A stretch of 64,000 nt of DNA, taken from the NCBI GenBank assembly GCA_018268255.1, contig JAFDWX010000003.1, forward strand, positions 1 to 64,000. Reading direction: 5' to 3'. A program made the translations under genes and the position numbers. This DNA is from Armatimonadota bacterium. GTDB taxonomy: Bacteria > Armatimonadota > Fimbriimonadia > Fimbriimonadales > Fimbriimonadaceae. Positions 3,327-25,949 of the stretch are shown here, piece after piece. The notes under the pieces were generated by a model. That model was given only the letters and a program-made list of their open reading frames with translations. It searched no databases and was not told where the DNA came from. Each line of letters begins with the position of its first letter. Position 1 is the stretch's first letter.

Positions 3327-3352
3327 ATCGGTGCGCGAGAAGGATGGCGCGC

Positions 3353-5803
3353 ATGAAACTCATGGCAACCAGACATTCCGTACCGGGTCGAGCCCCGACA
3401 GTTTCTCCCAGCGAGAAAACGCGCGTCGTGAGAACCACGGACAGCCCAAACTGTACTGGAGCGTGTGGCTGGCTTGCCACCGTTGTCGATGACGTCATCG
3501 TCGATCTCAAGCCTGCAGCAGACTATCCATGTCAAGAATACAATCCGCGAGGATGTCTTCGTGGCATGTCGATGACGCACATTATCTATGGTCCGGACCG
3601 TGTGCATAAGCCGCGAATTCGGACGGGTGAGCGCGGAGAAAACAAGTGGCGCGAGGTGGAATGGGACGAGGCTTTGGATTACATCGCGAGCCACATGTGC
3701 CGTATTCGGGATAGTCATGGGCCGGAGTCGATGCTCCTTTTCAACCAAGTTGTGGGGACAGGTTACGTTCAAAAGGGGGCGCAGGTGCGGATGGCTGCTC
3801 TGTTGGGGATGTCTTTTGCGACCGCATACGATTTCAATGGCGACATCTCCATGGGTTTCACTCAAACCGTTGGGATTGACTGCGTTGAGTGCGAGACCAA
3901 GAGTTGGGCACACTGTAGAACCGCAATTCTGTGGTCGAGTAACGTTTTTCAGACACGCATTCCCGACGCAAAATTCCTCACTACCTACGCCAAACAGAGA
4001 AACAATTGCCAGATCATCTCAATTGATCCGCGTTGCAGCCAGACTGCCAAAGGATCTGACCAGTGGTTACCCATCAACCCAGGAACGGATGGTGCCCTTG
4101 CCCTCTCGATGTGTCAGGTTATCATCGAAGCGGGGCACGTTGATTGGGAATTTCTGCAAAAGAACACAGATGTCTGCACCCTGATTCGCCAGGACAACGG
4201 TATGCGGTTGCGAGCTTCGGACGTTGGTCAGGGGACTGATGCTGAGTTCATGGTGTGGGATGAAGGCCTAGGTGGGCTCTTCAAGCTTCCAATGGAGTCG
4301 CTCAAGCTGCCCGAATCGGCCCGTTTTGCATTCAAGGGTCTTCGCGAGATCCAGGTTGCTGATGGATCGGTGATTAGTGTGGTCCCTGCTTACCAGTTGA
4401 TCGAAGAAGAGATCATGAAGCAGGATTACGTTCCAGAGCATGTCACTACGGTCTGCGACATCCCAGCAAAGGCTATTCGAGATATTGCGATCCGATTCGC
4501 CACCGAGCGGCCCAGTTCAATCATTATCGGGATGGGCATCAATCATCGCCTCCACGGGGATTTAACCATTCGATCCGTAATACTGCTGGCTACTTTGGTA
4601 GGTGCGCACGGCAAGCCCGGTGAGTCAGTTTCAATTTATTCTGGTCAACACCACTTTCGACTTGACGTATCGCCGTGGTGGTTCCCAGGCGGAAAACGGC
4701 CCAACGGCGTACCTATGCATTATTTCGTCCTTGGTCAACCTACAGGAACGATCAATCCCAAGATCAAATTTCCCAAAGCCGGGTTCAAGGCGCTCTTTGT
4801 GAGCCACGCCAATCCGCTTGTTACCGAGTTTAGCGAGCCCCTAAAAGAAGCAATCGATAATTTGGACCTGTTCGTTGTTACCGAGTTTTCAATGACGCCT
4901 ACATGTGAATATGCTGACGTCGTTCTCCCGGCTCCGACTTTTTGGGAAAAATTGGACTTGGTCGGCACGAGCTGCCATCCCTACCTCCAGATCCAGCAAC
5001 AAGTGATTCCGCCTCAATACAGCAGCCAAACAGAACTGTGGATTTGTCAGGAGTTGATAAGGCGCGTCGATCCCGAGAAGGCCAAAGAAATGGACTTTAC
5101 CGAGGAGCAAGCAATCGAAATGATGCTTGCTGGCGGTGGAAAAGAAGTCGAAGGAATCACTCTAGAGCAACTCAAAAAGGGACCGGTACGGCTCAAGGTT
5201 CATGATCCTGAATGCGGACTCGACGAACAACTCCACGAGGACAAACTCTTTCCTCCTCGAGCTTATCCGTTCGCAGAAGGCGCCCAACGCGAGTTTCTAA
5301 AGACAGGAAGAATGGAATTCTACAAGGAGGAGGACATCTACCAAAAGATGGGCGAAACCATCCCGACCTATCATTGGGCGTTTGAGCATCTTCCCAATTC
5401 ATCTCAAGAGTTTCCCCTTGCAATTGTTACGCCTCACTCAAAGTGGCGAGTGCACTCAACTCATTGCAACAATCCCCTATTACGAAATGTTAACCGTAAG
5501 CCGCTCGTGGAGATTAACCCAAAGGATGCTGCACGTCGCGGCATAAGGGATGGCGATCCGGTCGAAATTTTCAACGATTATGGGCAGTACCAGTTGTGGG
5601 CTCTCGTAACGGAGACCATCAAGCCCGGTGTTGTCTGCGTGGATCACGGTTGGTGGGATCGCTATCTAGCTTCGGGCAAGTACCACAGTGTCCACACCTA
5701 TCAAAAGATCAAGGCGACACACGAAGCTTATTACCTGCCTGCTGTCTATGCTCCTGGACAGCATTGGAAAGACACAAGGGTCGATGTCAGGAGGGTGAAC
5801 TAA
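3353..5803 (+). CDS. NarG-clade molybdopterin oxidoreductase, putative respiratory nitrate reductase catalytic subunit
   Basis: Predicted bis-MGD molybdoenzyme of 816 residues (E. coli NarG is about 1247). I chose ATG 3353 because AGAAGG sits 9 bases upstream. Collinear with NarG: VRTTDSPNCTGACGW (residues 26-40) matches the NarG FS0 region, NPRGC supplies C68, and YDFNGDIS (159-166) matches NarG YDWYCDLP, making D164 the probable Mo ligand. The C-terminal MGD-binding domain begins near TPHSKWRVHST. Oddity: the FS0 His of NarG is Asp here (D30), giving D-x3-C-x3-C-x29-C. There is no Tat or other signal peptide, so a cytoplasmic active site is likely, matching the NarK transporters. First gene of a five-gene operon with no narJ-type chaperone. 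Nitrate as substrate is inferred from clade and context; chlorate or another oxyanion is possible. Confidence 0.8.
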   Translation: MKLMATRHSVPGRAPTVSPSEKTRVVRTTDSPNCTGACGWLATVVDDVIVDLKPAADYPCQEYNPRGCLRGMSMTHIIYGPDRVHKPRIRTGERGENKWREVEWDEALDYIASHMCRIRDSHGPESMLLFNQVVGTGYVQKGAQVRMAALLGMSFATAYDFNGDISMGFTQTVGIDCVECETKSWAHCRTAILWSSNVFQTRIPDAKFLTTYAKQRNNCQIISIDPRCSQTAKGSDQWLPINPGTDGALALSMCQVIIEAGHVDWEFLQKNTDVCTLIRQDNGMRLRASDVGQGTDAEFMVWDEGLGGLFKLPMESLKLPESARFAFKGLREIQVADGSVISVVPAYQLIEEEIMKQDYVPEHVTTVCDIPAKAIRDIAIRFATERPSSIIIGMGINHRLHGDLTIRSVILLATLVGAHGKPGESVSIYSGQHHFRLDVSPWWFPGGKRPNGVPMHYFVLGQPTGTINPKIKFPKAGFKALFVSHANPLVTEFSEPLKEAIDNLDLFVVTEFSMTPTCEYADVVLPAPTFWEKLDLVGTSCHPYLQIQQQVIPPQYSSQTELWICQELIRRVDPEKAKEMDFTEEQAIEMMLAGGGKEVEGITLEQLKKGPVRLKVHDPECGLDEQLHEDKLFPPRAYPFAEGAQREFLKTGRMEFYKEEDIYQKMGETIPTYHWAFEHLPNSSQEFPLAIVTPHSKWRVHSTHCNNPLLRNVNRKPLVEINPKDAARRGIRDGDPVEIFNDYGQYQLWALVTETIKPGVVCVDHGWWDRYLASGKYHSVHTYQKIKATHEAYYLPAVYAPGQHWKDTRVDVRRVN

Positions 5804-5804
5804 G

Positions 5805-6524
5805 ATGGCTCGCTATTCGATGCTGATCGATCTCACGCGGTGCATTGGATGCGATGCTTGTACACTTGCGTGTAAGCAAGAGAATGGAACGCCTTACGAC
5901 ACGTTTTTTGCCCGGGTTCTGAATGTGGAAAGCGGGAAGTATCCAAATGTAAAGCGGATATACGTGCCAGTCCTCTGTAACCATTGTGATGATCCTGCTT
6001 GTCTCAAATCGTGCCCCAATAAGGCGATAGTGCGCCGACAAGATGGGATCGTCTTAGTGGATCAAGAGCGCTGCAAGGGCACAGGTGCCTGCGTCTCCGC
6101 TTGCCCATACGGAAACATTATTCTCCATCGTAACGAGGAAGAGTGGTACCTCGATGAGACAGAACGTTACGAAAAGGAATTTGTCAAGAAGCGCCTCAAA
6201 CAAAATGTTGCCCGCAAGTGTACTTACTGTGCCCACCGAGTCGACCAGGGATTGAACCCGGCATGCGTTGTGGCATGCCCCACTACTGCGCGTATCTTTG
6301 GCGATCTAGATGATCCAAATAGTGAAGTGTCTATCTACATTCAGGAACAAGCAGAGCAGACGGGACGCAAACCATTCCATTTACTTGAGGAGGCTGGTAC
6401 TCAACCCGCTGGATGTTACTTGGCGACAATGGCCGAGCAGGTACCTCACACGATGGGACAAACAGATGGAATTGGCGAAGCCAAAGACTATGAATCGCGG
6501 CGGACCGCAAGAGGAAGAAAATGA
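5805..6524 (+). CDS. NarH/DmsB-like four-cluster ferredoxin subunit
   Basis: 239 residues, starting 1 bp after the catalytic gene ends. Four Cys groups: CIGCDACTLAC (C13-C23), CNHCDDPACLKSC (C58-C70), CKGTGACVSAC (C90-C100) and CTYCAHRVDQGLNPACVVAC. The third has Thr93 where the second Cys should be. In NarH the equivalent position is Trp and that site binds a [3Fe-4S] cluster, so one 3Fe and three 4Fe clusters are predicted. It should wire electrons from the membrane subunits to the molybdenum subunit. It is far shorter than NarH (about 510 residues), closer to DmsB/NrfC size. Its stop overlaps the next start (ATGA). Confidence 0.85.
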   Translation: MARYSMLIDLTRCIGCDACTLACKQENGTPYDTFFARVLNVESGKYPNVKRIYVPVLCNHCDDPACLKSCPNKAIVRRQDGIVLVDQERCKGTGACVSACPYGNIILHRNEEEWYLDETERYEKEFVKKRLKQNVARKCTYCAHRVDQGLNPACVVACPTTARIFGDLDDPNSEVSIYIQEQAEQTGRKPFHLLEEAGTQPAGCYLATMAEQVPHTMGQTDGIGEAKDYESRRTARGRK

Positions 6525-7642
6525 ATTTTAAGACATTGCTTATTTTCTTGATTGTGGGAATCGCTGCAATTGGGAACTCTCAGGGACCTACCAGGAAGGA
6601 CATATTTGGTACGACTTCGTGTATCGGGTGCCACGGACAAAGTGCTATGGGAGGCTTGGGCCCGCCTCTAGCGCAAGCCAAGCTCAAACTCAAAGATTTT
6701 TCAAGCATCGTGCGTACAGGCAAAGGCATGATGCCTGCTATCAAAGAAGGCGAATTGAACGATGCTGATTTGGCAAGCATTTATACAGAAGTTCAAGCAA
6801 AACCCTGGGTTCCAGACGAAATCCCCATTGCATACAAAGTGGGGCAATTCTTGTCGCCGAAAAGTGTTTCACACATCTTTCTTGCCGCATTCTTGTTTGC
6901 TGCAATCTTCGCAATACGGGGACTTTCATATTGGTTAAAATGCGCCGCAGTGAAGGATCTATTGCCAGCCGTCGGTCAAATGGGATGGTTCAAAGCAGTA
7001 GGTACAATTCTAAAATCCTTAGTCGTAGATGGAATTTGTGTAGCATCGCTCTACCAGGCAGATAAAAAGCGATGGCTCTTACACGGGTTGTTGCTTTACG
7101 GAATGTGCGGGCTAATTCTTTCTGATGTTCTTATAGCCATTTTCAATCCTCAGCGTGGTCAACTGCCAATGACTAATCCACTTAAGCTGTTACCTGTTCT
7201 CAGTGGCTTAGCAATTGCATTAGGCGTGGTGTATGTAATGTATCGCTATAAAAAGGATGATTACATCGATAACGGAGTGACACTTGGCAAGGACTTTCTT
7301 TTCCTTAACCTACTGGTCCATGTTGTCGTGAGCGGATTCTTGGTTGTTACCCTAAAGAGATTCGGAGTTAACGATTGGGTAATGACCATTTACATGTATC
7401 ACCTGGCAGCGGTGTTCTTTCTCATAGTCACTGGACCATTTACACGTTTTCAACACATGTATGTTGTGCCCGCGCTTGCGGCTGTCACTCGGCTAACGGA
7501 AGCTGTAGTTGCTAGCGGGGTGGATCTTGGTTTCGAACGGGAGCCCTCGCCCGGCCGCCACCACAAGTCCACAAAAATTGCGGCAGATGTGTTGAAGCAT
7601 CTCGGCGAAGAAGGGCCTATCGTCATGCGCTACTACCCATAA
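6521..7642 (+). CDS. Cytochrome c / NarI-like cytochrome b fusion, membrane subunit
   Basis: 373 residues. A signal peptide or anchor (1-20) precedes a mono-heme cytochrome c domain with CIGCH at residues 34-38 and a likely Met ligand in the GMMPAI stretch. After about residue 110 there are several transmembrane helices with conserved His residues (RWLLHGLLLYG; MYHLAAVFFL). The helical pattern resembles the NarI/DsrM gamma-subunit family, which binds two b hemes. The fused cytochrome c may stand in for the missing cytochrome c1 next to the Rieske and cytochrome b genes downstream. That role is inference. The ATGA overlap with the ferredoxin gene argues for stoichiometric assembly. Confidence 0.75.
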   Translation: MNFKTLLIFLIVGIAAIGNSQGPTRKDIFGTTSCIGCHGQSAMGGLGPPLAQAKLKLKDFSSIVRTGKGMMPAIKEGELNDADLASIYTEVQAKPWVPDEIPIAYKVGQFLSPKSVSHIFLAAFLFAAIFAIRGLSYWLKCAAVKDLLPAVGQMGWFKAVGTILKSLVVDGICVASLYQADKKRWLLHGLLLYGMCGLILSDVLIAIFNPQRGQLPMTNPLKLLPVLSGLAIALGVVYVMYRYKKDDYIDNGVTLGKDFLFLNLLVHVVVSGFLVVTLKRFGVNDWVMTIYMYHLAAVFFLIVTGPFTRFQHMYVVPALAAVTRLTEAVVASGVDLGFEREPSPGRHHKSTKIAADVLKHLGEEGPIVMRYYP

Positions 7643-7653
7643 GGAATTCCATA

Positions 7654-8148
7654 ATGACTAACGACCTTAGTACCAATGACAGTATCGAAATCTCCCGTCG
7701 AAAAATGATGGGACTCGTCGTCGGCGTTATCAATCTGGGACTCATCGGCTCAATCGTTGGCCCAATGGTAGGATTTGCCACTGCACCATTGACAGTCAAA
7801 CGGAAGCAGAGATGGGTAGAGCTTATGGATGAATCCATGATCCAGCCAGGTGAAGTGAAAGAAGTCAATTACAGTATGCGGGTCGTGGATGGCTACCACG
7901 AGATCGAGCAAAAATACACTGTTTACCTGCGACGCGGAGAGGAAGATGTGATCTGCATAGATCCTGCATGTACGCACCTCGGCTGCCGAGTCAAATTCCA
8001 GTCAGAGCAACATAGGTTTGTTTGCCCGTGCCACGGAGGCGTATTTGATGACCAAGGAAACAACAAATCGGGTCCTCCTCCAAAGCCACTGGAGCGCCAT
8101 CCTGTCAAAATCGAGGCAGGGAAAATCTGGATTTCTAGAGAGGTCTAA
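7654..8148 (+). CDS. Rieske [2Fe-2S] protein of the nar operon
   Basis: 164 residues. An N-terminal Tat-like anchor (SRRKMMGLVVGVINLGL) would place the domain outside the cytoplasmic membrane. The Rieske site is complete: C106-T-H108 and C124-P-C126-H127, with C111 and C126 as the disulfide pair. It resembles QcrA-type subunits of bc/b6f complexes. It lies between the cytochrome c/b fusion and a cytochrome b gene, suggesting a quinol-oxidising bc-like module attached to the nitrate reductase. Haloarchaeal nar operons also carry a Rieske protein (NarB) and cytochrome b (NarC), which is the closest known precedent I can name. Confidence 0.9.
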   Translation: MTNDLSTNDSIEISRRKMMGLVVGVINLGLIGSIVGPMVGFATAPLTVKRKQRWVELMDESMIQPGEVKEVNYSMRVVDGYHEIEQKYTVYLRRGEEDVICIDPACTHLGCRVKFQSEQHRFVCPCHGGVFDDQGNNKSGPPPKPLERHPVKIEAGKIWISREV

Positions 8149-8151
8149 TCT

Positions 8152-9372
8152 ATGCGTCAGCAAAAGTTCCGCCCAGAAGACGCTCCGACACTTAGTCCAG
8201 AAGTAAAAGTCGATACTCCTCGTGAAGCAACAGCAGAGGAACGACTTCACATTGATAGACCTTCGCTGACTGACTGGCTCGATTTGCGACTTGGCTGGTA
8301 TGGTTTCGTCCGCAAGAATCTGGATGAGCCGATGCCCGCTGGTGTAGGTTGGTGGCAAACCTTGGGGAATCTGCTCATGACGTTGCTGATCTTCCAGTTT
8401 GTAACAGGATTCGCATTGGCAATGTACTATTCGCCGAGCCCGGAAGCAGCTCATGCTAGTGTAAAACACATTACCTACGCAGTGACTTTGGGCTCATTCA
8501 TTCGCGGATTGCATGCTTGGGGATCGAGCATCATCGTCATTACGGTTGTACTCCACACGTTACGCGTCTTCTTTTGGGGTTCTTATAAGAAGCCCCGTGA
8601 AGTTACGTGGATTATTGGTGTGATCATCTTCCAAGTGGTCTTGGGCTTCTCCTTCACCGGGTACTTGCTGCCGTGGGATCAGCGTGCATATTGGGCGACA
8701 GTTGTTGGAACTCGAATTGCTGCCACAGTTCCACTGATCGGACATGGGCTTTTGGTGTTCATTCGAGGAGGTGAAGAAGTCGGTGCGCTTACTCTCACCA
8801 GGTTCTTCTCTTTTCACGTGATGCTGCTTCCGGCGACGTTACTTGTCTTTAAGTTTCTTCACCTTTATTTAGTGCGTCGGCACCATATCGCTGGGCCGGT
8901 CGAACCTGCGAAAGGTGCGCCAGTACCGTTTTATCCCAACCAGCTCTTCAAGGATGCTATCGTTCTCTTGTTCGGAGTCGGCTTATTGATCTTCCTGGCG
9001 ATTGGATTTCCACCTGCCCTTGAGGCAATCGCAAATCCCACAGGCACAGATTTCAGCCCAAGACCTGAATGGTATTTCCTGGGACTTTACGAACTCTTGA
9101 AGATCATGCCCAGCGGATGGGAAGTGGTGGCAACAGTCATCATCCCCACTGGTATCACTATCGGAATGTTTGCGTTGCCATGGCTTGATCGGTCCAAGTC
9201 ACGGCATCCTGGCAAGCGCCAGTGGGTGATGATGATGGGAATGTTCATCATCCTGCTCATTGGCCTCATGACTCTCAAAGGGATTTTGGAGACACCGCCA
9301 GAGCACAAGGCAACGCAAGTCGCCGAAAATACGCAGTTTCATCCGGTTGAGACAGCTGCGCTGACTGAGTGA
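8152..9372 (+). CDS. bc-complex-type cytochrome b
   Basis: 406 residues and polytopic, starting 3 bp after the Rieske gene. The paired heme histidines are visible (HAWG and VLHTLRVF in one helix; FSFHVMLLP and FKFLHLYLVRRHH in another), as is the quinol-site PEWYF motif with a long C-terminal helical part, so both the b6-like and subunit-IV-like halves are present. There is no separate cytochrome c1 gene; the c-type heme of this operon is in the upstream fusion. Predicted role: oxidise menaquinol/quinol with the Rieske protein and pass electrons into the nitrate-reducing complex or onto a periplasmic acceptor. Confidence 0.9.
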   Translation: MRQQKFRPEDAPTLSPEVKVDTPREATAEERLHIDRPSLTDWLDLRLGWYGFVRKNLDEPMPAGVGWWQTLGNLLMTLLIFQFVTGFALAMYYSPSPEAAHASVKHITYAVTLGSFIRGLHAWGSSIIVITVVLHTLRVFFWGSYKKPREVTWIIGVIIFQVVLGFSFTGYLLPWDQRAYWATVVGTRIAATVPLIGHGLLVFIRGGEEVGALTLTRFFSFHVMLLPATLLVFKFLHLYLVRRHHIAGPVEPAKGAPVPFYPNQLFKDAIVLLFGVGLLIFLAIGFPPALEAIANPTGTDFSPRPEWYFLGLYELLKIMPSGWEVVATVIIPTGITIGMFALPWLDRSKSRHPGKRQWVMMMGMFIILLIGLMTLKGILETPPEHKATQVAENTQFHPVETAALTE

Positions 9373-9440
9373 TAGCTTCTTCGGTCATCTGCAGTTCAGC
9401 AACAATCTTCTTGCTGGCGGATGAGGCGCATTGGATTCCT

Positions 9441-9473: not shown

Positions 9474-9478
9474 GAATG

Positions 9479-10972
9479 CTAGTCGTCTGTTCGATGACGG
9501 ACCATTCGTAGAATCACCATATGCATCCACACGAGACAGAATGCGCTCATGGCTGCCAAGAACAGCCAGCAAGAGGTCCAAAGACCAGTTAGTTTTAGCA
9601 AGTACCCAAACAAAATGGGACAGAAAAATCCGCCCAAGCCGCCAATCACTCCCACCAGGCCACCCACCACACCCACGTCATGTGGAAAGTAATCCGGAAT
9701 GTGACGATAAACCGCAGCTTTGCCAACTCCCATCATGATTCCAGCGAGAAAGACGATGCCTGTGAAGACCCAAACATTTGCCTGGAAATAAACGTGAGTG
9801 ATTCCGCGTGCCAAGAGCTCCTTCTTCTTAACCTTCTGACCCACCTTAACGATAGGCTCTTGCCAGTTGCTGCGCTGAGGCCAAATGATCGAGCCCTCCG
9901 ATAGCGACGAACCGCTGGAACTGAGTCGATCTGCAAGGTCGCCCTTCGCTGTGGATGCCTTGACTGGATAAGTCTTATCATCAATTTGGATGGCAGAGGC
10001 GCCGACGCTAACCACGGTGCCCGCTCGATCTGCCATCACACCTTCTCCTGGGCTAGAAATATCCATCCGTGGCGCGATGACCAGGGCGAACAGCAAGGCA
10101 CAGCTGCTAAGCACCCAGTACATCGTGGCTCTAGCACCGAACCGGTCGCTTGCCCAGCCTCCGAGTGCTCGGATCAGCCCGCTCGGCAAGCTAAAGATGC
10201 TGGCCATGAGTCCGGCTGTAGCCAGCGACATTCCATAGACACTGAGGTAGTAGGGCACGAGCCACTGGCTTAGCGCGACGAAGGCACCGAAAACCAAGAA
10301 ATAATACACCCCAAACCGCCAGACACGCACATCCTTGAGCGGACGTAGGCGATCAGACATGCTCTTCTGGTTTGTTCCCTCAGGTTTTTTGTTGGTCGTG
10401 GTGAGTGCGAACACGATCGTCATCAGCACTAGAGCCGCGCTGTAGAGCAGTGGAAGCGTGCGCCACCCGTTGAGGTTGCGACCACCATCCGTCAAATGCT
10501 TGAGTACCAGAGGAGAGGCAAGAGTCGTGATGGCTGATCCAGCATTCCCGATGCCGAATATCCCCAACGCTGTCCCTTGCTTTTCGGCAGACCAGAACAC
10601 AGACGTATACGCGATTCCAACCGCAAATCCGGTGCCCGCTATGCCAAAAATCAAGCCGCAAACTACAAACTGCCAGAAGGTCGAGGCGAAGGAGGTCAGT
10701 GCTGCACCGGCAGCCGCGGACAGCATCACCCCAATGAAAACCGGTTTGCCTCCATAGCGATCGGAAAGAAGTCCAACCGGGAGGCGAAGAATTGAGCCGC
10801 TAAACACCGGCATACCAATGAGCCATCCCAATGCTGCCTTGTCGATGGTGAGGATGCGGTTGTCTACCAAAAATGTTGCAAGGACCCCATACATGGTCCA
10901 CACCGCAAAGCAGACTGTGAATGCAAGGGTGTTCAACGTGAGCACTTTCTTGCCCACAGAGTTGGTTACCAT
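9479..10972 (-). CDS. narK: NarK-family nitrate/nitrite transporter with an inserted soluble domain
   Basis: MFS transporter with NarK signatures: GLLSDRYGGKPVF after the second helix and a Gly-rich stretch ending KQGTALGIFGIGNAG. I place the start at ATG 10972 (497 residues), because that codon sits at the predicted transcription start set by the box at 11006-11021; a longer reading from 11062 would run through the box. Residues about 303-396 form a non-membrane insert between helices. It is beta-rich, with segments AGTVVSVG and VKVGQKVKKKELLARG that resemble a barrel-sandwich half-motif. NarK proteins normally have only short loops here. Predicted role: nitrate uptake and/or nitrite export for the cytoplasmic reductase. 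Confidence 0.85.
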   Translation of the reverse strand: MVTNSVGKKVLTLNTLAFTVCFAVWTMYGVLATFLVDNRILTIDKAALGWLIGMPVFSGSILRLPVGLLSDRYGGKPVFIGVMLSAAAGAALTSFASTFWQFVVCGLIFGIAGTGFAVGIAYTSVFWSAEKQGTALGIFGIGNAGSAITTLASPLVLKHLTDGGRNLNGWRTLPLLYSAALVLMTIVFALTTTNKKPEGTNQKSMSDRLRPLKDVRVWRFGVYYFLVFGAFVALSQWLVPYYLSVYGMSLATAGLMASIFSLPSGLIRALGGWASDRFGARATMYWVLSSCALLFALVIAPRMDISSPGEGVMADRAGTVVSVGASAIQIDDKTYPVKASTAKGDLADRLSSSGSSLSEGSIIWPQRSNWQEPIVKVGQKVKKKELLARGITHVYFQANVWVFTGIVFLAGIMMGVGKAAVYRHIPDYFPHDVGVVGGLVGVIGGLGGFFCPILFGYLLKLTGLWTSCWLFLAAMSAFCLVWMHMVILRMVRHRTDD

Positions 10973-10977
10973 ACCAA

Positions 10978-11021
10978 ATAGTCTCACCCTCCGGGCTTTT
11001 TGCTCTATGACAGAGGTCATA
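10978..11021 (-). promoter_or_regulatory. Crp/Fnr-type box and -10 of the first narK
   Basis: Perfect inverted repeat TATGAC-N4-GTCATA at 11006-11021. Reading leftward, 22 bp separate it from GACTAT (10983-10978; A2, A5 and T6 of a -10). The predicted start of transcription coincides with the narK ATG at 10972, so the mRNA should be leaderless. Confidence 0.75.
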
Positions 11022-11145
11022 CCTTCACAAAAGAAGTCGATGGTGGGCAAATTTGACGACAAAAAAGCACTAAGGACCTATTCTGGGAATATCCTTCGCC
11101 CCGGAGAATTGCGCAAGCCGAAGGACTTATTTTGGCCTTGGCAAT

Positions 11146-11865
11146 CTAGGCGAGAATTCCTCGAATGGCTTCCATATCCAGAATGGAAATCGTTCGATAA
11201 CCCGCACGTATCCACCCCTTGTTTTGCCACTTTGTGGTGGTTCGAATCACTGTCTCAACACTTGTGGACGCTATCTCGGCGAGACTCTGCCTACTAATTG
11301 GCAGGGCCTCATCGGTTTCCACGAATGGCGACCGAAACACCTCATGAACTGAGAGAAGCGCAGCCGCAAGACGAGGTTCGACTGCGCAGGTAGCCATTCC
11401 GCCCAAAAAGTCATAGCTCTGAAGAAGGCGGTGCCGTAGTTCTTCCATCGCTGACTTGTAGAGGTTCGGTTCTTTGCGCATTGCCCTTCGCCATACCGAT
11501 GTCGGTAGCTTGAGATACCATGTGGGAGTTACAGCCGAAGCCGTAAGTGCATATGGCCCTTCCGAAACTGCTGCCAAGATTCCCGCACAGGAACCAGGCC
11601 CGACAAGTTCCACTACGACTTCATGAGCATGGGGTGCTCGTCGAGCAAGGCGAATCATTCCATCCGCAACGATTGCTACGAACCGTGCCACCGTGCCGGC
11701 TGTCCACAGGATTTCCCCCCGGTCTGCATGGGCGAGATGGCAACCTTCTTCCAAAAGCAAGATTGTTTCATCGGACGCCTGCCGACAAAGCCCGCATGCC
11801 CGAATCACCACCTGAAGATCGGGCATGTGAGATCCTAACTCGTCATCTTCGAACCGGTCGTCCAT
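11146..11865 (-). CDS. Crp/Fnr-family regulator 1
   Basis: 239 residues (or 226 from ATG 11826). A cyclic-nucleotide-binding-like beta-roll is followed by the dimer helix and a C-terminal HTH with recognition helix VETVIRTTTKW, giving E-x3-R as in the family but lacking the Ser of the Fnr E-x2-S-R motif. N-terminal Cys residues occur as CGLC plus one further Cys (EEGC), and another lies in GPGSCAG. Spacing differs from Fnr, so an Fe-S sensor is possible but unproven. It lies 21 bp downstream of the second narK in the same direction and is probably co-transcribed from the box at 13331. Likely signal: nitrate, nitrite, NO or oxygen status (inference). Confidence 0.8.
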   Translation of the reverse strand: MDDRFEDDELGSHMPDLQVVIRACGLCRQASDETILLLEEGCHLAHADRGEILWTAGTVARFVAIVADGMIRLARRAPHAHEVVVELVGPGSCAGILAAVSEGPYALTASAVTPTWYLKLPTSVWRRAMRKEPNLYKSAMEELRHRLLQSYDFLGGMATCAVEPRLAAALLSVHEVFRSPFVETDEALPISRQSLAEIASTSVETVIRTTTKWQNKGWIRAGYRTISILDMEAIRGILA

Positions 11866-11886: not shown

Positions 11887-13206
11887 TCAGCAGGGTTTTT
11901 CAGCGCTCTTGCGAGCGTAGAACCACCAGTTGATCGCCAGATTGAGGACATAGAAAGCCGTTAGGCCGACAAAGAATGTGCTTGCGTTTGTCCCCTTGCC
12001 CATAGCTTTTCCAACCAAGACGCTAAAGAGGAATGGTCCGTAAGCCGCGATTGCTGAAGTCCAGCCGATGACGCCCCCAGCTTGTCGAGGCGGGAAAATC
12101 ATCGGCATCTGCTTGAATGTGGAGGCGTTGCCAATTCCGGAGAATAGGAATAGCACCAGCATTAGGCCTAAGAATCCTGGGAATTGTTCGATGGACGGCG
12201 AAGATACATAAGGCACAATCAGCACGCCCCCAACGATAAGTCCTGCTGCACTCAGCATGGTGACTTTGGCCCCACCGACCTTATCGGCAATTGGTCCAAA
12301 CAGGGCGCGCACTGCGGCTCCTATCAGTGGGCCCATAAACGCATATTTAAGCGGATCTGGTGCACCTGTAAAACCCCCGAACAACTGCTTGATCAAAAGG
12401 GGAAAGACTGCCGAAAGACCACTGAACGACCCAAAAGTCATTACGTATAGTGAGGTCATCAACCATGTGTGCTTTTCCTTGAAGATATCAAGTTGGTCCT
12501 TAAGAGTGGCTGTGACAGGAACATCTTTGAGTTTCGCCCAAGCGAGAATTGCCCCGATGAGTATGAATGGAACCCAGATGAACGACGCATTTTGAAGGAA
12601 AATCTGGGTTGTTTTCCCTTTGTTCGAAAAGTTCTGGGACGCTCCAACAAGGCTGATTCCGATGATGGCGGGGATGAGAAATTGGGCCACACTCACTCCA
12701 AAATTGCCAATGCCGGCTTGTATCCCCAGCGCAGTGCCCTGAAGTCGTTTTGGGAAAAAGTGCGAGGTGCTGGGCATAAATGAACTAAAGTTTCCGCCTC
12801 CCAACCCAGCTAAGAACGCCAGAATCATCAAGGTGCCGAAAGTGGTGCTGGATTTCATTACTGCCATGCCCCAGCCAATCGAGGGAATAACTAGAAGCAG
12901 CGTGGAGATAGCGACAACTTTCCTAGTTCCAAATATGGGGATCAAGAAGGTGTGGAGAATGCGTAGCGTTCCTGCGGCCAAGCCGGGCATTGCTGTCAGC
13001 CAAAAAAGTTGTTCTGGAGGCAGTTTGAACCCGATGCCGCCCAGCTTGACCACTATCGCGCTGACCATGAACCAGGTGGAAAAACTAAGCAGAAGACAAA
13101 AGGTGGTGATCCACAGTGTTTGCCAGGCGATTGGCTTGGCAACAGAGTTCCAAAAATCCTCGTCATTAGGACGCCAATCAGTTGTCATGCTATCGTGTTG
13201 GATCAT
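11887..13206 (-). CDS. narK: NarK-family nitrate/nitrite transporter, second copy
   Basis: 439-residue MFS protein with the NarK-type Gly-rich motif (AFLAGLGGGNFSSFMPSTS and LQGTALGIQAGIGNFG). ATG 13206 is preferred because GGGAGA lies just upstream; the longer reading to 13320 has an atypical N-terminus. This copy lacks the soluble insert of the other narK and diverges strongly from it. Two different NarK types in one cluster are common in nitrate respirers, often one nitrate/proton symporter and one nitrate/nitrite antiporter; which is which cannot be decided here. The regulatory box at 13331 lies 125 bp upstream, implying a leader of about 90 nt. Confidence 0.85.
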   Translation of the reverse strand: MIQHDSMTTDWRPNDEDFWNSVAKPIAWQTLWITTFCLLLSFSTWFMVSAIVVKLGGIGFKLPPEQLFWLTAMPGLAAGTLRILHTFLIPIFGTRKVVAISTLLLVIPSIGWGMAVMKSSTTFGTLMILAFLAGLGGGNFSSFMPSTSHFFPKRLQGTALGIQAGIGNFGVSVAQFLIPAIIGISLVGASQNFSNKGKTTQIFLQNASFIWVPFILIGAILAWAKLKDVPVTATLKDQLDIFKEKHTWLMTSLYVMTFGSFSGLSAVFPLLIKQLFGGFTGAPDPLKYAFMGPLIGAAVRALFGPIADKVGGAKVTMLSAAGLIVGGVLIVPYVSSPSIEQFPGFLGLMLVLFLFSGIGNASTFKQMPMIFPPRQAGGVIGWTSAIAAYGPFLFSVLVGKAMGKGTNASTFFVGLTAFYVLNLAINWWFYARKSAEKPC

Positions 13207-13302
13207 CGTTCTCCCAGATATTGCACAGCATTCCGACGGATTAACACAGTCATTTTTGGGACTGGCGTAGCGAAAAAACGCCTGAGTGATGCCGCATATG
13301 AG

Positions 13303-13346
13303 AGTTTTCTCCGCCGACACATGCTGGGAATATGATGAAAGTCATA
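13303..13346 (-). promoter_or_regulatory. Crp/Fnr-type box upstream of the second narK
   Basis: TATGAT-GAAA-GTCATA at 13331-13346. Leftward, after 22 bp, is AAAACT (13308-13303; A2, A4 and T6 of a -10). Predicted transcription start is about 13296, some 90 nt before the narK ATG. That position coincides with an ATG opening a 15-codon frame (13297-13250). Confidence 0.65.
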
Positions 13347-16271: not shown

Positions 16272-16277
16272 ACTCTC

Positions 16278-20292: not shown

Positions 20293-21028
20293 ACATGAGG
20301 GCCTTGGTAACGAGCTTCCAAACGGCGAGCAGCAGAACCATGGCCAGTGCCACCCGCATGGTGCGAGATGATGTTCGAACAGCTCCAAAATAACTGCCGA
20401 TCACTGCACCGAACACAGCCACGATGACCAAGGGCCAGAGCTGGATGCTCCTTCCAATCAACTCCATTGGTCGGGAAAGCAGCCCGGCAACCGAGTTGAC
20501 GAAGATGAAACAAGCCGACACTGCTGCAACTTTATGGGGCCGAGCCCAATTGAGCAGGATCATCAATGGCGAAAGGAATATCCCGCCACCAACACCCACA
20601 ATTCCACTCACCAGTCCGATGCTGACACCCGCGAGCGTCGCCAAGTGCAACTTCGGCCGCATTGGCTCCAGCTCATCTTGCTTGGGCTGAACAACGAGAG
20701 CAAACGCTGCATACATGAGTGTTCCCGCAAGTATCGTGCTCTGAGTGCGACTCTCCATTTGCAGCCTCCCCCCCAGAAAAGCGAAGGGTATGGACCCGAG
20801 CATAAACGGCCATGCCAAATTCCAATCGAAGTGGCGCGCCCTCCGAAAAGCGAAGAATGTTATGGCGGATACCACCACATTGAGTTCGAGGGCAGTCGTG
20901 GAAGCAAGCTTAGTCGGAATCGAGGTAAATGCCAAAAGGGCTAGGTAGCCGGATGCGCCACCGTGGCCAACCATGCTGTAAGCCGTGGCCACAACGGCTG
21001 TTCCAATCCAGAGTACAACATCACCCAT
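20288..21028 (-). CDS. TauE/SafE-family membrane permease
   Basis: 246 residues from ATG 21028, which overlaps the upstream stop by 8 bp (the longer 293-residue reading runs deep into the previous gene). Eight or so hydrophobic helices with the family's Gly-rich repeats (SMVGHGGASGYLALLAF and GIVGVGGGIFLSPLMILL). Family members move sulfur- or carbon-based organic and inorganic anions, often sulfite. It is the last gene of the molybdenum-cofactor operon, so export of a sulfur compound from the MoeB/rhodanese sulfur-transfer step, or of an oxyanion, is possible. That is speculation. Confidence 0.8.
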   Translation of the reverse strand: MGDVVLWIGTAVVATAYSMVGHGGASGYLALLAFTSIPTKLASTTALELNVVVSAITFFAFRRARHFDWNLAWPFMLGSIPFAFLGGRLQMESRTQSTILAGTLMYAAFALVVQPKQDELEPMRPKLHLATLAGVSIGLVSGIVGVGGGIFLSPLMILLNWARPHKVAAVSACFIFVNSVAGLLSRPMELIGRSIQLWPLVIVAVFGAVIGSYFGAVRTSSRTMRVALAMVLLLAVWKLVTKALML

Positions 21029-22451
21029 GACGGCTGATGAGGGATTGCATTCCCCCTCGGAGAGAATAGACCTCCGAAAAACCAGAGGATCTGAGGTCTG
21101 CCACCAGGCGGTAACTGCGGACGCCAGATGCACATATGAAAATCGTCGGTTGATCCCATTTGCGGTCATAACAACCGCTCATCGGGATTCGTTTGTGGGG
21201 CAGCGCAAGGCAAGGGGTTTCTGATAGGTCGCGAATATCAACAAGAGCCGCGTGCGGCATTTCATCCGGCGATGACACCTCCCATTGCTCTGGCTGAGCC
21301 TCGTCGATTTGATTGCACAGCCGACATAGGCGAGAACGGGTGCGTTGAATGCGATCGATTTGGAGGGACCGAAGGTCCACAAGCGCGAGCGACTCCGTCA
21401 AGGTGGCGCTACCCAGGATGCCCTGAATGACCTCAACTGCCTGGCAGGAACCGAGAAAATAGGGCACAACTCCCAGAACACCCAGGTCAGCGCAGGTGCC
21501 TACACAGTGGTTGGGTGGGGGATCAGGGAACATGCATTCCAGACACGGCCCGTCGGGAGTAATGGTCAGTATTTGACCTTCGAAGCGATGCACACTTGCG
21601 GTAACCAAATTCTTTCTGAGGCTACGACACACGCGGTTCAACAGGAACTTGGTATCGAGGCTATCGGTGCCGTCGACGACCCAATCAAAATTCTCAACAA
21701 TTTGAAAGGCGTTCGTCTCTGTCAGGACTTCGGGGAAAGGATGACACTGAATGGAGTGTCGCAGGCGTTTTGCCAAGGCCGACGCCCGTTCGACTTTGAG
21801 CCTCCCAATATCCGATTGAGCAAAAAGTGTTTGACGGTGGAGATTGGATCCCTCGACCGTGTCTGGGTCCACCAACCCGATCGTGCCAATGCCAGATCCG
21901 ACAAGGGCGGGCAGCGATCCCGCTGCGAGGCCGCCCACACCCACAAGGAGCACTCGCGCATTCTGGAGCTTGAGTTGTCCCTCTTTGCCGATTTCTGGAA
22001 GCCTAATGTGCCTGTCGTAAAGTTCTTCGAATTCCGCAGGTCTTGAGGACTCACCCCCGGAAACCCACTCCGAGGGACGGCCTGCGTAGTTTTCCTTTTT
22101 CCAGATGGGAACTCGCCACTTAATCTGGTCCATGATCCATTCGCAGGCCTCAAAAGCTTCCCTCCGGTGAGCTGCAGCCGTCTGGACAATAACCGCAGAC
22201 TCTCCGATACAGACTCGTCCGACTCGGTGTGTAGCCCGGGCATCTTCAAGTTCAAACTTGGAGATTGCCTCATTGAGGATTGCCTCACCTTGTACGAGAG
22301 CCATTTCAGCAAAGACCTCATACTCAAGCGCTTCCACCGCTTGGCCGTCTGCGTGATTTCGCACCTTTCCTTCGAAAGTTGCAAAACCTCCAGCCGCCGG
22401 AGAATCGAGTAATTGAGGCGACAGAATCTCGTGGGTAAGAAAAAATCTCAT
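21021..22451 (-). CDS. MoaE-MoeB-rhodanese triple-domain fusion
   Basis: 476 residues in three domains. Residues 1-135 resemble MoaE, the large subunit of molybdopterin synthase (VRNHADGQAVEALEYEVF, HRVGRVCIGESAVIV, VPIWKKENYAGR). Residues about 140-375 are MoeB/ThiF-like adenylyltransferase (RHIRLPEIGKEGQ, VLLVGVGGLAAGSLPALVGSG, catalytic R in GSNLHRQTLF, Zn pairs CLEC and CRLC). Residues about 385-476 are a rhodanese with C440 in CASGVRS. MoeB activates MoaD, the rhodanese can supply sulfur to it, and MoaE uses the thiocarboxylate. MoeB-rhodanese fusions (MOCS3-like) are known; joining MoaE as well is unusual. Coupled to moaD by ATGA. Confidence 0.9.
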   Translation of the reverse strand: MRFFLTHEILSPQLLDSPAAGGFATFEGKVRNHADGQAVEALEYEVFAEMALVQGEAILNEAISKFELEDARATHRVGRVCIGESAVIVQTAAAHRREAFEACEWIMDQIKWRVPIWKKENYAGRPSEWVSGGESSRPAEFEELYDRHIRLPEIGKEGQLKLQNARVLLVGVGGLAAGSLPALVGSGIGTIGLVDPDTVEGSNLHRQTLFAQSDIGRLKVERASALAKRLRHSIQCHPFPEVLTETNAFQIVENFDWVVDGTDSLDTKFLLNRVCRSLRKNLVTASVHRFEGQILTITPDGPCLECMFPDPPPNHCVGTCADLGVLGVVPYFLGSCQAVEVIQGILGSATLTESLALVDLRSLQIDRIQRTRSRLCRLCNQIDEAQPEQWEVSSPDEMPHAALVDIRDLSETPCLALPHKRIPMSGCYDRKWDQPTIFICASGVRSYRLVADLRSSGFSEVYSLRGGMQSLISRHG

Positions 22452-22690
22452 CCACCTGCCACGGGCGGAATAAGCACAATTTCCATACCGTCCTCCAACT
22501 GTACGTTTGGCTCCACGAATTCGCTGTTGATCGCTACTCGAATCAGTGCCGACGGCAGCCCCAAACGGTATTTTGCAATGAGCTCATTCACCAACTGCTC
22601 AACGGTGGAGCACTGCGTGTGATAGTGCTCTTCTTGCAAGCCACGGCGATCTCGGAGAACCGCAAAGTAACGAATACGTATGGTGATCAT
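22448..22690 (-). CDS. moaD: MoaD, small subunit of molybdopterin synthase
   Basis: 80 residues, ubiquitin-like beta-grasp pattern (MITIRIRYFAVLRDRRG, AINSEFV, DGMEIVLIPPVAGG). It ends in the obligatory Gly-Gly that is adenylated by MoeB and thiocarboxylated. Both ends overlap neighbours by ATGA (moeA upstream, the MoaE-MoeB-rhodanese fusion downstream), so it should be made in step with its activating enzyme. Confidence 0.93.
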   Translation of the reverse strand: MITIRIRYFAVLRDRRGLQEEHYHTQCSTVEQLVNELIAKYRLGLPSALIRVAINSEFVEPNVQLEDGMEIVLIPPVAGG

Positions 22691-23847
22691 AGAGTTCTCT
22701 GCCAGGGGAAAGCGAGGAATTCGACTTTTGAACCCTTGGACAAAAAGGGTGCCTCGGATGGAATGATGGCAAGGCCATCAGCTCCGACAAGGCTGAAGTT
22801 CGAGTGGGACCCAACAGTTTGCTGAAGTTCTATTTCGCAGTGTTCCGCTACCTTGGCTGGTAAGTACTCCTCGCGACCTGGTTTGCGGCGATGGTCAGAG
22901 GCTAGGACCCTCAGACTTTTGTGGAGCGGATGGCCCAGATACTCGGAGATGAAGATTAGGAGCCCGATCCAAGCAGACATTGGATTTCCGGGTAATCCGA
23001 ACCACGCCTTTCCGTCGCGGCGAGTGCCGAAGACCAGGGGTTTTCCGGGCTTGATCGCCACACCTTGGAATGCAACTTCATAATGAAGATCCCGCATCAC
23101 TTTCGGTACGAAATCATATGCCCCGGCTGAAACACCTCCGCACGTCACCACGAGATCGTGTTCGTTTGTGGCTGACTGGAGGACCGTTGTGAGTTCCTCG
23201 ATACTATCGTTGGCGTGATAGCTCGCGGCCGATATTCCCCACTGGCGTAGCGTGGACTGAATGGTGATGGTATTTGAGTTGAAGATTTGGCCGTTCGTTC
23301 TCTCGCTCCCAGGTTCGGCAAGCTCGTTTCCTGTGGAAACCACTCCAACTAACGGGGCCCGCTCAACCTGAACCAGAGGAATACCGAGCGCTGCCAAAGC
23401 CCCAACGATCGGAGGAGTGATCAAAACCCCCCGGCGCAGAATCGTAGTTCCCTCGGCGACCTCTTCTCCAGATCGGCGAATGTGTGCCCCGCTCGAAACT
23501 TCGCCCCTGAGTCGTTGCCCTTCAGCGTTCGCCTGTTCGACTGGGATCACTCCAAACGCGCCATCCGGTACTGGCGCGCCAGTGTAGATTCGTACAGCAT
23601 CTTTGCACCCAAGACTCCCGACTTCGGAAGTCCCTGCAGGGATCTCTCCGACAATGGTCCAGGGACCCACGGCACCTCCCACGACGAACCCGTCCATTGC
23701 CGAGTTGTCGAACGATGGTATCGGCCAATCCGTTGAGTAGTCCTTGCCGAGTATCCGCCCATTGCATTCGGAAAGGGGTAGTTCTATGGTCTCAAGACGG
23801 GGGCGTTTGAGACGAATAATGCTCAGAGCTTCGCAACTCCGTATCAC
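22687..23847 (-). CDS. moeA: MoeA, molybdenum insertase
   Basis: 386 residues. Contains the MoeA hallmarks DNSAMDGFVV, the TGAPVPDGAFGVIPVEQ block, GVVSTGNEL, and the MoCF-type TCGGVSAGAYDF followed by GLPGNPMSAW. It catalyses insertion of molybdate into adenylylated molybdopterin made by the MogA domain encoded immediately upstream (stop/start overlap at 23844-23847). ATGA coupling also links it to moaD. Normal length for the family. Confidence 0.93.
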   Translation of the reverse strand: MIRSCEALSIIRLKRPRLETIELPLSECNGRILGKDYSTDWPIPSFDNSAMDGFVVGGAVGPWTIVGEIPAGTSEVGSLGCKDAVRIYTGAPVPDGAFGVIPVEQANAEGQRLRGEVSSGAHIRRSGEEVAEGTTILRRGVLITPPIVGALAALGIPLVQVERAPLVGVVSTGNELAEPGSERTNGQIFNSNTITIQSTLRQWGISAASYHANDSIEELTTVLQSATNEHDLVVTCGGVSAGAYDFVPKVMRDLHYEVAFQGVAIKPGKPLVFGTRRDGKAWFGLPGNPMSAWIGLLIFISEYLGHPLHKSLRVLASDHRRKPGREEYLPAKVAEHCEIELQQTVGSHSNFSLVGADGLAIIPSEAPFLSKGSKVEFLAFPWQRTL

Positions 23848-24746
23848 GGATGGGGAGTCCCTTTGAGCATATCGATAAAGTGAAGTAGGTTAGGCATGAG
23901 TGCGTTCACTGCATCGACACATGCCCTAGGACTCCCAGGGATCGCAACAACAAGCGTATTTCCGATGAGGCCCGCCACTGGACGAGCGAGCATTGCGGTT
24001 GGAACCCGATCTTGGCTGTAAGATTGAAACGCTGAGACGACCCCTGGCAACGACCGTTCAAGCAACGGTGTAACGGCCTCAAATGTGATATCTCGAGGAC
24101 CAATTCCCGTGCCCCCCGTGACGAAAACCATGTCAATTCCTGCCGTGACCCTGCTTGTGATCGCGTCGCGGAGCTTCTCCACGTCATCTGCAACAATGGC
24201 GACTTCAACTTCTAACGCCCCGTTTGCTTGCAGAACTTCTTGGAGGATGGGGCCGCTTTGGTCAGCATAGGTCCCAGTGCTGGCGCGGTCGGATACTACG
24301 ATAACCTTGGCAAGCCAACCGGATCGGTGGGGAAGATCAGACTTGCCGCCACGCTTTTCCAGCAGATGAATCGAGCCAATTTCCATTGACTCATCGATCA
24401 TCTTCAGCATGTCGTATAGGGTGATCACAGATGCAGCTGCCGCAGTAATCGCTTCCATTTCCACTCCGGTCTTGGCAACTGAAGTAATCGACACTTCAAC
24501 GATGATACGGTCGGGTTCAAAACTAAAGTCCACTCCCACGAATTCAATCGGGATGTTGTGGCAATACGGAATCCACTCTGTCGTTTTCTTCGCCGCTTGT
24601 ACCGCTGCGACTCGAGCTACTGGAACAGGGTCGCCTTTGGGTGTGTCTCCAGCCTGCACCCGTGCCACAGTTTCGGCCGATGCGATCAGCACTGCTTGAG
24701 CCCGCGCAGTTCTCAAGGTTGAAAACTTGTGTGAAATGTCTCTCAT
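23844..24746 (-). CDS. MoaC-MogA/MoaB fusion
   Basis: 300 residues from ATG 24746, which overlaps the moaA stop (ATGA); a longer reading to 24815 lies inside moaA and is unlikely. Residues 1-135 are MoaC (cyclic pyranopterin monophosphate synthase): GDTPKGDPVPVARVAAV, the PYCHN active-site region and KTGVEMEAITAAAASVITLYD. Residues about 142-300 are a MogA/MoaB-type molybdopterin adenylyltransferase: VSDRASTGTYADQSGP, FVTGGTGIGPRDIT and AIPGSPRA. It joins an early step (after MoaA) and a late step (before MoeA). MoaC-MogA/MoaB fusions occur elsewhere but are uncommon. Confidence 0.9.
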   Translation of the reverse strand: MRDISHKFSTLRTARAQAVLIASAETVARVQAGDTPKGDPVPVARVAAVQAAKKTTEWIPYCHNIPIEFVGVDFSFEPDRIIVEVSITSVAKTGVEMEAITAAAASVITLYDMLKMIDESMEIGSIHLLEKRGGKSDLPHRSGWLAKVIVVSDRASTGTYADQSGPILQEVLQANGALEVEVAIVADDVEKLRDAITSRVTAGIDMVFVTGGTGIGPRDITFEAVTPLLERSLPGVVSAFQSYSQDRVPTAMLARPVAGLIGNTLVVAIPGSPRACVDAVNALMPNLLHFIDMLKGTPHP

Positions 24747-25789
24747 CCGCCGATTTGCACCATCGTTAAGTGATCGCGCTGTGCCCAATCTCGCATCGGT
24801 GGATGGCCCGCCCACTTACCTGCGAGGCAGGTTGCAACCGCCTGTTCAAGTTCGTCATCAGTACCGTTGTATCGTAGAATATCGCGCAGGGATACCGCTG
24901 GAGGCAGAAAGAGACAGGATTTTAGCTCGCCATCGGCAGTAAGTCTCAGTCGGCTGCATCCTCCGCAGAAGCTCTCGGTGACACTTGAAACAAATGCAAT
25001 TCTCCCTGCTGATCCAGGTATTGAATACTCACGAGCGACATCCGATGGATATCCATCGAGGGCTTGTAATTGAAATTCCTTCCCGATAATCTCTCGAATC
25101 TTGGACGAACTTAGTACGCTGCAACTCGACCAATTATTGTTCAAGAAAGGCATAAATTCAATAAATCGAACGGTAATGCACTTTGATGACGCAAAGTGAA
25201 CAAAATCGATAATTTCATCATCGTTAACCCCTGGCATCATCACGACATTGACCTTGGTCGGTATATCATGTGCTTGCGAAAATTCAATACCTTTCAACAC
25301 AAGTTCTAATTCCGATCTTCTTGTAATAGCTTCAAATCGGTCTGCTCTTAAAGTATCTAAGCTAACGTTGATTGAGCTCAGACCAGCCTCCTTTAGGAAA
25401 GGGGCGTCTTTCGAAAGTCGACTGCCATTTGTGGTTAGTGCAAGTTCCTCAATAGCTGGGTTGGTCCTTAACTCTCTAATGAGATCGATGTACCCATGCC
25501 GTATTGTGGGCTCACCGCCAGTGATGCGCAACTTCCGAACTCCCTTCTTCGCAAAGAAGGTCACTAGTTGAACGATTTCTTCAAAAGTAAGGATCTCGTC
25601 TCTCGGTTTCCACTTGACTCCCTTCTCCGGCATACAATAGGTACACCTAAAGTTGCAGCGATCAGTGATCGAGATCCTGAGATAGTCGTGAAACCGTCCG
25701 AAGCGATCCACAAGGCAGGTCTTCGACGCACCAGATTGCGGGTCTGTCGCCTGAGTTGGAGGACATTCTGCTGTGGAACCGACTCGCAC
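24743..25789 (-). CDS. moaA: MoaA, GTP 3',8-cyclase (radical SAM)
   Basis: 348 residues from GTG 25789. The longer reading to 25945 would translate the regulatory box itself (25823-25838), so I prefer the GTG that sits at the predicted transcription start. The radical-SAM motif is C45-x3-C49-x2-C52 (DRCNFRCTYCMP), followed by KLRITGGEPTIR. The second cluster is C-x2-C-x13-C (SFCGGCSRLRLTADGELKSC), and the protein ends in Gly-Gly as MoaA does. It performs the first step of molybdopterin synthesis with the MoaC domain encoded next. First gene of the six-gene cofactor operon. Confidence 0.92.
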   Translation of the reverse strand: MRVGSTAECPPTQATDPQSGASKTCLVDRFGRFHDYLRISITDRCNFRCTYCMPEKGVKWKPRDEILTFEEIVQLVTFFAKKGVRKLRITGGEPTIRHGYIDLIRELRTNPAIEELALTTNGSRLSKDAPFLKEAGLSSINVSLDTLRADRFEAITRRSELELVLKGIEFSQAHDIPTKVNVVMMPGVNDDEIIDFVHFASSKCITVRFIEFMPFLNNNWSSCSVLSSSKIREIIGKEFQLQALDGYPSDVAREYSIPGSAGRIAFVSSVTESFCGGCSRLRLTADGELKSCLFLPPAVSLRDILRYNGTDDELEQAVATCLAGKWAGHPPMRDWAQRDHLTMVQIGG

Positions 25790-25794
25790 ATCGT

Positions 25795-25838
25795 ATTTTG
25801 GACTGCGCGCGGAATTCAGCAACATGATAAGCGTCATA
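25795..25838 (-). promoter_or_regulatory. Crp/Fnr-type box and -10 of the cofactor operon
   Basis: cATGAT-AAGC-GTCATa at 25823-25838. Leftward, after 22 bp, is CAAAAT (25800-25795, 4 of 6). The predicted transcription start is at GTG 25789. This places molybdenum-cofactor synthesis under the same control as the reductases. Confidence 0.75.
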
Positions 25839-25905
25839 TTGTCGTCGGAAGTTATTGCGGGTATTTTGCCAACTCCGGGCAATCCTGGTTCCAAGCCCAA
25901 CACCT

Positions 25906-25949
25906 TATGATTAGGATCATAGTTTGTTAACCTGGTGGTGTTCAATATT
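25906..25949 (+). promoter_or_regulatory. Crp/Fnr-type box and -10 of the NnrS-like gene
   Basis: TATGAT-TAGG-ATCATA at 25906-25921, a perfect 6+6 palindrome. After 22 bp comes AATATT (25944-25949, 4 of 6). The predicted start is 25956, 2 nt before the ATG at 25958. It is back-to-back with the moaA promoter, 67 bp separating the two boxes. Confidence 0.75.

Follow-up and report, generated by a model that had tools for sequence, protein, structure and literature searches.

Energy conservation by NarGHI rests on a simple redox loop, which yields two charges per two electrons. In the haloarchaeal nar cluster a Rieske protein (NarB) and a cytochrome b (NarC) accompany an outward-facing Nar, and Q-cycle coupling has been proposed (PMC2483277). 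A bc complex coupled to outward nitrate reduction has also been proposed for Methanoperedens (PMC4683180), and in Campylobacter jejuni the bc complex (Qcr) was shown to drive Nap/Tor respiration with an H+/2e- of 2 (PMC6195509). For Nar1 of Streptomyces coelicolor, Falke et al. propose that electrons pass from the cytochrome c of the bcc complex to the NarI haem and on to the cytoplasmic NarG, with a Q-cycle yield of 4 H+ per 2 e- and a span of 505 mV that was judged sufficient (PMC7931247). Here we describe a five-gene operon, A to E, from a stretch of 64,000 nucleotides (the window: positions 1 to 64,000 of contig JAFDWX010000003.1, assembly GCA_018268255.1) of an Armatimonadota bacterium of the family Fimbriimonadaceae, whose genome (G000) measures 3.19 Mb. 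To judge from its genes, its product is probably a respiratory nitrate reductase that incorporates a quinol:cytochrome c oxidoreductase of its own.

All five open reading frames (ORFs) lie on the forward strand. A (3344..5803 as called, 819 aa) is the molybdopterin reductase catalytic subunit, with Pfam/NCBIfam matches to molybdopterin oxidoreductases, and B (5805..6524; 4Fe-4S matches in the same databases) a four-cluster Fe-S subunit resembling ArrB and PsrB. C (6521..7642) consists of a signal/transmembrane (TM) segment, a monohaem cytochrome c with the haem c binding motif CIGCH (6620..6634) and a NarI-like membrane domain of five helices; it gave a cytochrome CBB3-type and a QmoC-like match. 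D (7654..8148) is a Rieske 2Fe-2S protein with an N-terminal signal anchor, and E (8152..9372) a full-length cytochrome b in which b6 and subunit IV are fused and which contains the PEWY motif; the former was recognised by Rieske models and the latter by N- and C-terminal cytochrome b models of Pfam/NCBIfam. A reading of the window made earlier from the sequence only had described these genes as separated or overlapping by a few bases, and the spacing of 1, -4, 11 and 3 bases agrees with this. It had started A at 3353; since nearly all relatives begin with MATR..., the true start is likely to be 3362 rather than 3344 or 3353. Complete, co-oriented A-B-C-D-E arrangements were found in 32 fetched loci besides the window, and the operon is confirmed as real and not a product of chance. 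No FNR box was detected in the window with a strict or a relaxed pattern, promoter and terminator scans gave no excess over shuffled sequences and an Rfam scan of 2300-9600 returned no match.

In a survey of 291 Armatimonadota genomes A was present in 37, at 65-100% identity, and C in exactly the same 37; neither was ever found alone. An E-type cytochrome b (at least 62% identity) accompanied them in 36 of the 37 and occurred in one further genome, G184, while at a threshold of 58% identity every sampled genome with this type also contained A or an operon remnant. In G184 (locus L141), where A and B are gone, D and E are intact and 52 residues of C remain; the locus looks like a decayed operon. 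It had been envisaged that homologous genes might turn up scattered. This was not so: the 32 complete operons stand beside one split (G104) and one decayed case (G184), and apart from G104 the other carrier loci are cut by contig ends. When the pairwise distance matrices of the four subunits A, C, D and E were compared over 30 taxa, correlations of 0.73-0.86 were obtained, as expected for shared inheritance; species phylogeny alone would produce such values too.

Nearly all relatives belong to the Fimbriimonadaceae or to other Armatimonadota. Outside the phylum the whole operon occurred in L094, a bin named Acidobacteria, where A is 68% identical; because the operon was not found in the other sampled genomes of that phylum, both transfer and misbinning are possible. 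The restriction to Armatimonadota is provisional, since genome contigs were scanned with two short peptide patterns only. Searches with C found no relative on viral contigs and no match on plasmids at E 1e-3. A record titled Methanoregulaceae archaeon (L077, JADZEW010000030.1) contains A at 83% identity; its title is probably wrong.

A had been taken for a short member of the NarG clade, an assignment that did not survive phylogenetic analysis. In a tree into which PcrA and EbdA were entered as partial sequences, the A clade was sister to NarG, PcrA, EbdA, haloarchaeal NarG and a chlorite-dismutase-linked enzyme, with supports of 100, 99 and 91. On this tree A is a deep sister lineage of all type II dimethyl sulfoxide (DMSO) reductases sampled, not a NarG. 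The cut-offs of the family models were not reached: A scored 223.6 bits against TIGR01580 (NarG; cut-off 1084), 467 against TIGR03479 (cut-off 985) and 133 against TIGR03478 (cut-off 481). Among solved structures, perchlorate reductase PcrA and ethylbenzene dehydrogenase come nearest to A. The region YD[FY]NGD (YDFNGD in the window) aligns with the Mo-ligand Asp of NarG and PcrA in all sequences and contains the predicted ligand. The Fe-S motif of type II alpha subunits is HxxxCxxxC(x)nC (PMC8301774). In A the corresponding site reads D-x3-C-x3-C..C, with Asp33 in place of the type II His in 32 of 32 sequences. None of the same number of sequences has a twin-arginine translocation (TAT) signal; because of this and of the NarK transporters nearby, A should be cytoplasmic. 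The locus of A's best plasmid match (L124, 6672-12201, from a plasmid of Alisedimentitalea scapharcae) encodes chlorite dismutase, a MopB protein, an Fe-S protein, TorD and a cytochrome c and is an unusual, possible (per)chlorate cluster; its MopB protein has Asn at the position of the Mo-ligand Asp (FYNWYGD).

B is an Fe-S protein with four cluster sites, as originally described, but in size and sequence it resembles ArrB and PsrB and not NarH. Three of its sites are of the 4Fe-4S type and the fourth is without one Cys: the motif of the third cluster is C-x2-T-x2-C, in which the Cys is replaced by Thr (29 sequences) or Ala (4). Because of this missing Cys a 3Fe-4S cluster is likely at the third site. 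B and C are encoded as one polypeptide, by a single ORF, in 14 loci, and L066 has one open frame that covers the last part of A as well as B and C. A, B and C therefore form a unit on the cytoplasmic side. From its topology the B-C fusion would have to hold B inside and, past the first helix, the cytochrome c outside. An AlphaFold model of one natural fusion (L060; mean pLDDT 76, pTM 0.73) matched PsrB/ArrB over B and small cytochromes c over its middle part. L048 was also considered as a B-C fusion and was rejected, as it merely has an open upstream frame.

The domain matches and the fold of C are in keeping with its description as a fusion of a cytochrome c with a NarI-like domain. The order of signal/TM segment, one CxxCH domain and approximately five helices is varied in four relatives with two CxxCH motifs. 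The membrane part of the L060 model matched NarI with a VIA Z of 10.6-11.8 and a root-mean-square deviation (rmsd) of 5.2-5.7, and EtfD with Z 11.9 and an rmsd of 4.0, in a range (under Z 13) where helical bundles may match by chance. It also matches the QmoC profile NF038018, under the cut-off. Profile alignment of C with NarI by hhalign gave E 6e-4 at a probability of 28%; in this alignment H294 and H312 of C coincide with the NarI haem ligands H187 and H205, and the motif PF[ST]R..H is common to both. The invariant His residues of C are H188, H294 and H312. Of the four haem ligands of NarI (H56, H66, H187 and H205) the equivalents of the last two are thus invariant in C, and TM2 has one invariant His.

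The Rieske/cytochrome b module is complete, as had been claimed. All 31 Rieske sequences have intact Rieske boxes, all 31 cytochromes b have PEWY, and E of the window has the His pairs 121/135 and 222/237 (spacing 14 and 15). It contains no Cys at all, so that both haem c and the anchor of a b6f-type haem cn are missing. Neither D nor E contains a CxxCH motif, and the operon's sole cytochrome c lies in C. In the homologous bc modules of other Armatimonadota families (L143-L146) cytochrome b ends in C-terminal cytochrome c domains; in the operon, C is in effect the subunit that bears the cytochrome c instead. In 9 of 26 carrier genomes PF00033 matched no protein other than E, a count that is only as good as the draft assemblies and the single Pfam model behind it. 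The genome of the window also has a second bc module (L105, G000:C4:353000-370000, at 7652-10596), an odd bc/bd-like hybrid in which a Rieske protein and a cytochrome b are followed by a CydA-like protein (459 aa) that carries a cytochrome c at its C-terminus.

In the mechanism that we propose, D and E would oxidise menaquinol at the outer face of the membrane, at the Qo site of E, by a Q-cycle. Of the two electrons of each quinol, one would reduce the cytochrome c of C via the Rieske centre and the other would be recycled through the b haems. The outer-face cytochrome c of C, reduced by the Rieske centre, would take the place of cytochrome c1 or of a cytochrome c domain on cytochrome b. The NarI-like domain would then conduct the electrons inwards through haem b and B to the Mo site of A, which would reduce nitrate, imported by the adjacent NarK, in the cytoplasm with cytoplasmic protons and with nitrite as the product. 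The net yield would be approximately 4 charges per 2 electrons, two from the Q-cycle and two from the inward movement of electrons. We infer the substrate, the haem content, the direction of electron flow and the association of D and E with A-B-C. A Q-cycle-coupled nitrate reductase had already been suggested in the sequence-only reading, and it is supported as the best hypothesis. Whether all this takes place in a single five-subunit supercomplex, in which the Q-cycle of a dedicated bc module feeds a cytoplasmic nitrate reductase through the cytochrome c-NarI fusion at about twice the charge per nitrate of NarGHI, with A from a lineage that branched before all sampled type II DMSO reductases, is more doubtful, and we advance that full picture tentatively.

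Several observations weigh against the proposed mechanism. Helix 2 of C has one invariant His (H188) where NarI has a pair of TM2 ligands, the residue ten positions past it is an invariant Leu (Leu198), and 8 of 34 sequences lack H267, a possible replacement haem ligand. Because H188 alone is invariant in TM2 and H267 is not always present, the two-haem wire in C is putative. K222 is invariant too, and C may have a quinol site of the NarI type. In the split case, G104, A lies about 9 kb from B-E. D and E may be useful on their own, since G184 retains them after the loss of A and B. Finally, because A falls outside all characterised type II reductases, nitrate as its substrate rests on context.

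C could oxidise quinol in the manner of NarI and pass the electrons straight to B and A, its cytochrome c being an accessory entry or exit and D-E a parallel, co-regulated bc complex. The NarI fold, the invariant haem ligands of TM5 and the location of K222 near K86/K88 of NarI would suit this arrangement. We nevertheless consider it unlikely, for by spacing (with the register of TM2 set by hand) the position of the distal-haem ligand H66 of NarI is taken by an invariant Leu, C always has a cytochrome c and E none, and A and C were seen without the D-E module only at contig edges or in one rearrangement.

It might be thought that the same five-subunit wiring serves another acceptor, e.g. chlorate, selenate or a different oxyanion. 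Such a role is improbable given that narK genes occur in 22 of the 37 fetched stretches and that the neighbourhood is one of nitrate metabolism, even if A lies outside the NarG clade, has Asp instead of the type II His as Fe-S ligand and finds its best plasmid match (L124) next to a chlorite dismutase gene; the search for chlorite dismutase was not exhaustive. The system could also run in reverse, as a cytoplasmic nitrite oxidoreductase that delivers electrons outwards via the cytochrome c of C to caa3, as in Nitrobacter. This would leave the Rieske/cytochrome b pair, which is always present, without a role save in reverse electron flow, and nitrate reduction is suggested instead by the CRP/FNR-type regulators, by an NnrS-like gene and by a second nitrate reductase (NasC-type) in the vicinity. 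Nitrite oxidation therefore seems quite improbable, although a NarI-like protein with a cytochrome c would suit outward transfer from a cytoplasmic Nxr as well, and a marker-gene survey that included the carrier H1_ARM1 (L085) counted one Armatimonadota genome among the potential nitrite oxidisers (PMC7648391). That D-E is the general bc complex of the organism and stands beside the reductase by happenstance, a possibility already raised with the sequence-only reading as one that would overturn it, is very improbable: E is the sole PF00033 cytochrome b in nine genomes and D-E outlived A-B in G184, but both genomes with an annotated oxidase locus (G000 and G138) have alternative complex III with a caa3 operon, the E type (at least 58% identity) is tied to A or an operon remnant in the genomes sampled, and E has no cytochrome c partner but C.

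On the reverse strand the operon is followed by a NarK2-like member of the NarK family of nitrate/nitrite transporters (9479..11062), a CRP/FNR-type regulator (11146..11865), a second NarK-family transporter (11887..13320) and the molybdenum cofactor genes MoaE-ThiF, MoeA, MoaC/MogA-type and MoaA (21021..25945). CRP-type regulators, an NnrS-like and a MobA-like protein are also encoded in the window. The NarJ-type chaperone (PF02613), whose absence had been pointed out, is indeed missing from 21 of 26 carriers, namely from G000 and 20 of the 25 others tested. In G000 and G138, the two genomes in which the oxidase locus was annotated, alternative complex III (ActD, NrfD, an ActB-like protein and a cytochrome c) forms an operon with caa3 oxidase; in both, and so even in G138, where E is the only cytochrome b, the aerobic chain is separate. 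Each of the 26 carriers has one strong cox1-type gene. As to a second, NorB-like PF00115 protein, only weak extra matches were found, in three of the 26 and not in G000, and NirK was not found over its cut-off in any of the 26. Nitrite is probably the end product of the operon route because there is no NirK and no clear NorB, whereby NrfA, NirBD and NirS were not searched for.

A second nitrate system is present in the window. The region 15525-20242 comprises a NasC-type MopB protein (18059-20242), a hemerythrin, a four-cluster Fe-S protein (16257) and another Rieske protein (16889), and a NarI-like membrane protein just under the PF02665 cut-off lies at 28278-29318. Its Fe-S, Rieske and MopB genes are found together again in L042, L064 and L094. 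The nitrate/molybdenum cofactor cluster is flanked by direct repeats (2897-3049 and 29673-29825; 153 bp, 88% identity, with a 61 bp core at 98%) which end in a tRNA-like T-arm and a CCA end. Neither an integrase nor an intact matching tRNA was found for them. G143, a genome of the same genus, has a single copy of the repeat by the same flanking TolC gene, its contig ending in the flanking gene, and possesses related narK, NnrS and NarI-like genes without A-E. The region bracketed by the repeats is possibly a genomic island or a recombination site.

If the proposed coupling is correct, the scoring of nitrate respiration in Armatimonadota genomes would have to be revised for anammox reactors and other nitrogen-rich habitats, where marker-gene surveys may take the A-type subunit for nar or nxr. 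With E. coli NarGHI the operon shares a cytoplasmic Mo subunit with Asp at the Mo-ligand position, an Fe-S subunit, a membrane subunit that resembles NarI in fold and an adjacent NarK. It differs in its A subunit, which has 819 aa and does not group with NarG, in a short B of the ArrB/PsrB type, in the cytochrome c fused to C and the single invariant His of TM2 there, in its dedicated Rieske/cytochrome b pair and in the lack of NarJ.

The haloarchaeal nar cluster (NarB, NarC, NarGH, Orf7 and NarJ), which had been named as the nearest precedent, is a functional parallel, as it has a Rieske protein and a cytochrome b within a nitrate reductase operon. The arrangement is not the same: haloarchaeal-type NarG is exported by the TAT system, with an EB_dh-type gamma subunit and TorD and with no NarI-like wire, whereas A should stay inside and C cross the membrane. 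A TAT-exported NarG with an EB_dh-type gamma subunit is a feature of L070 and L127, not of the operon in the window. The contrast is instructive: loci whose reductase is exported lack the NarI-like wire, which goes with a reductase that remains in the cytoplasm. Operons of the haloarchaeal type, with Rieske, cytochrome b, NarG-like and NarH-like proteins, were observed in Armatimonadota and Acidobacteriota (L070, L117-L120); L070 additionally encodes a multihaem c protein, EB_dh and a NarJ-like protein, and its NarG-like protein has a TAT signal.

The Qcr-Nap system of Campylobacter jejuni resembles the operon in its electrogenic, bc-driven nitrate reduction but has a periplasmic reductase and separate genes. 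The membrane domain of C is like those of the QmoC, EtfD and NarI-like carriers, from which C differs in its N-terminal cytochrome c and its partner subunits. The parts and the bioenergetic principle have precedents but, as far as could be searched, dedicated wiring by a single operon that includes a cytochrome c-NarI fusion has none; no description of this arrangement was found in the open-access literature. The coupling of a Q-cycle to cytoplasmic nitrate reduction, proposed earlier for one actinobacterium from separate genes, is here seemingly fixed in one operon, and this pairing, with its fused cytochrome c, makes the idea directly testable. Nar1 of Streptomyces relies on the general bcc complex, which is part of a bcc-aa3 supercomplex and encoded in a separate operon, whereas in the Armatimonadota the module is encoded in the same operon, is dedicated to the reductase and has its cytochrome c joined to the NarI-like subunit.

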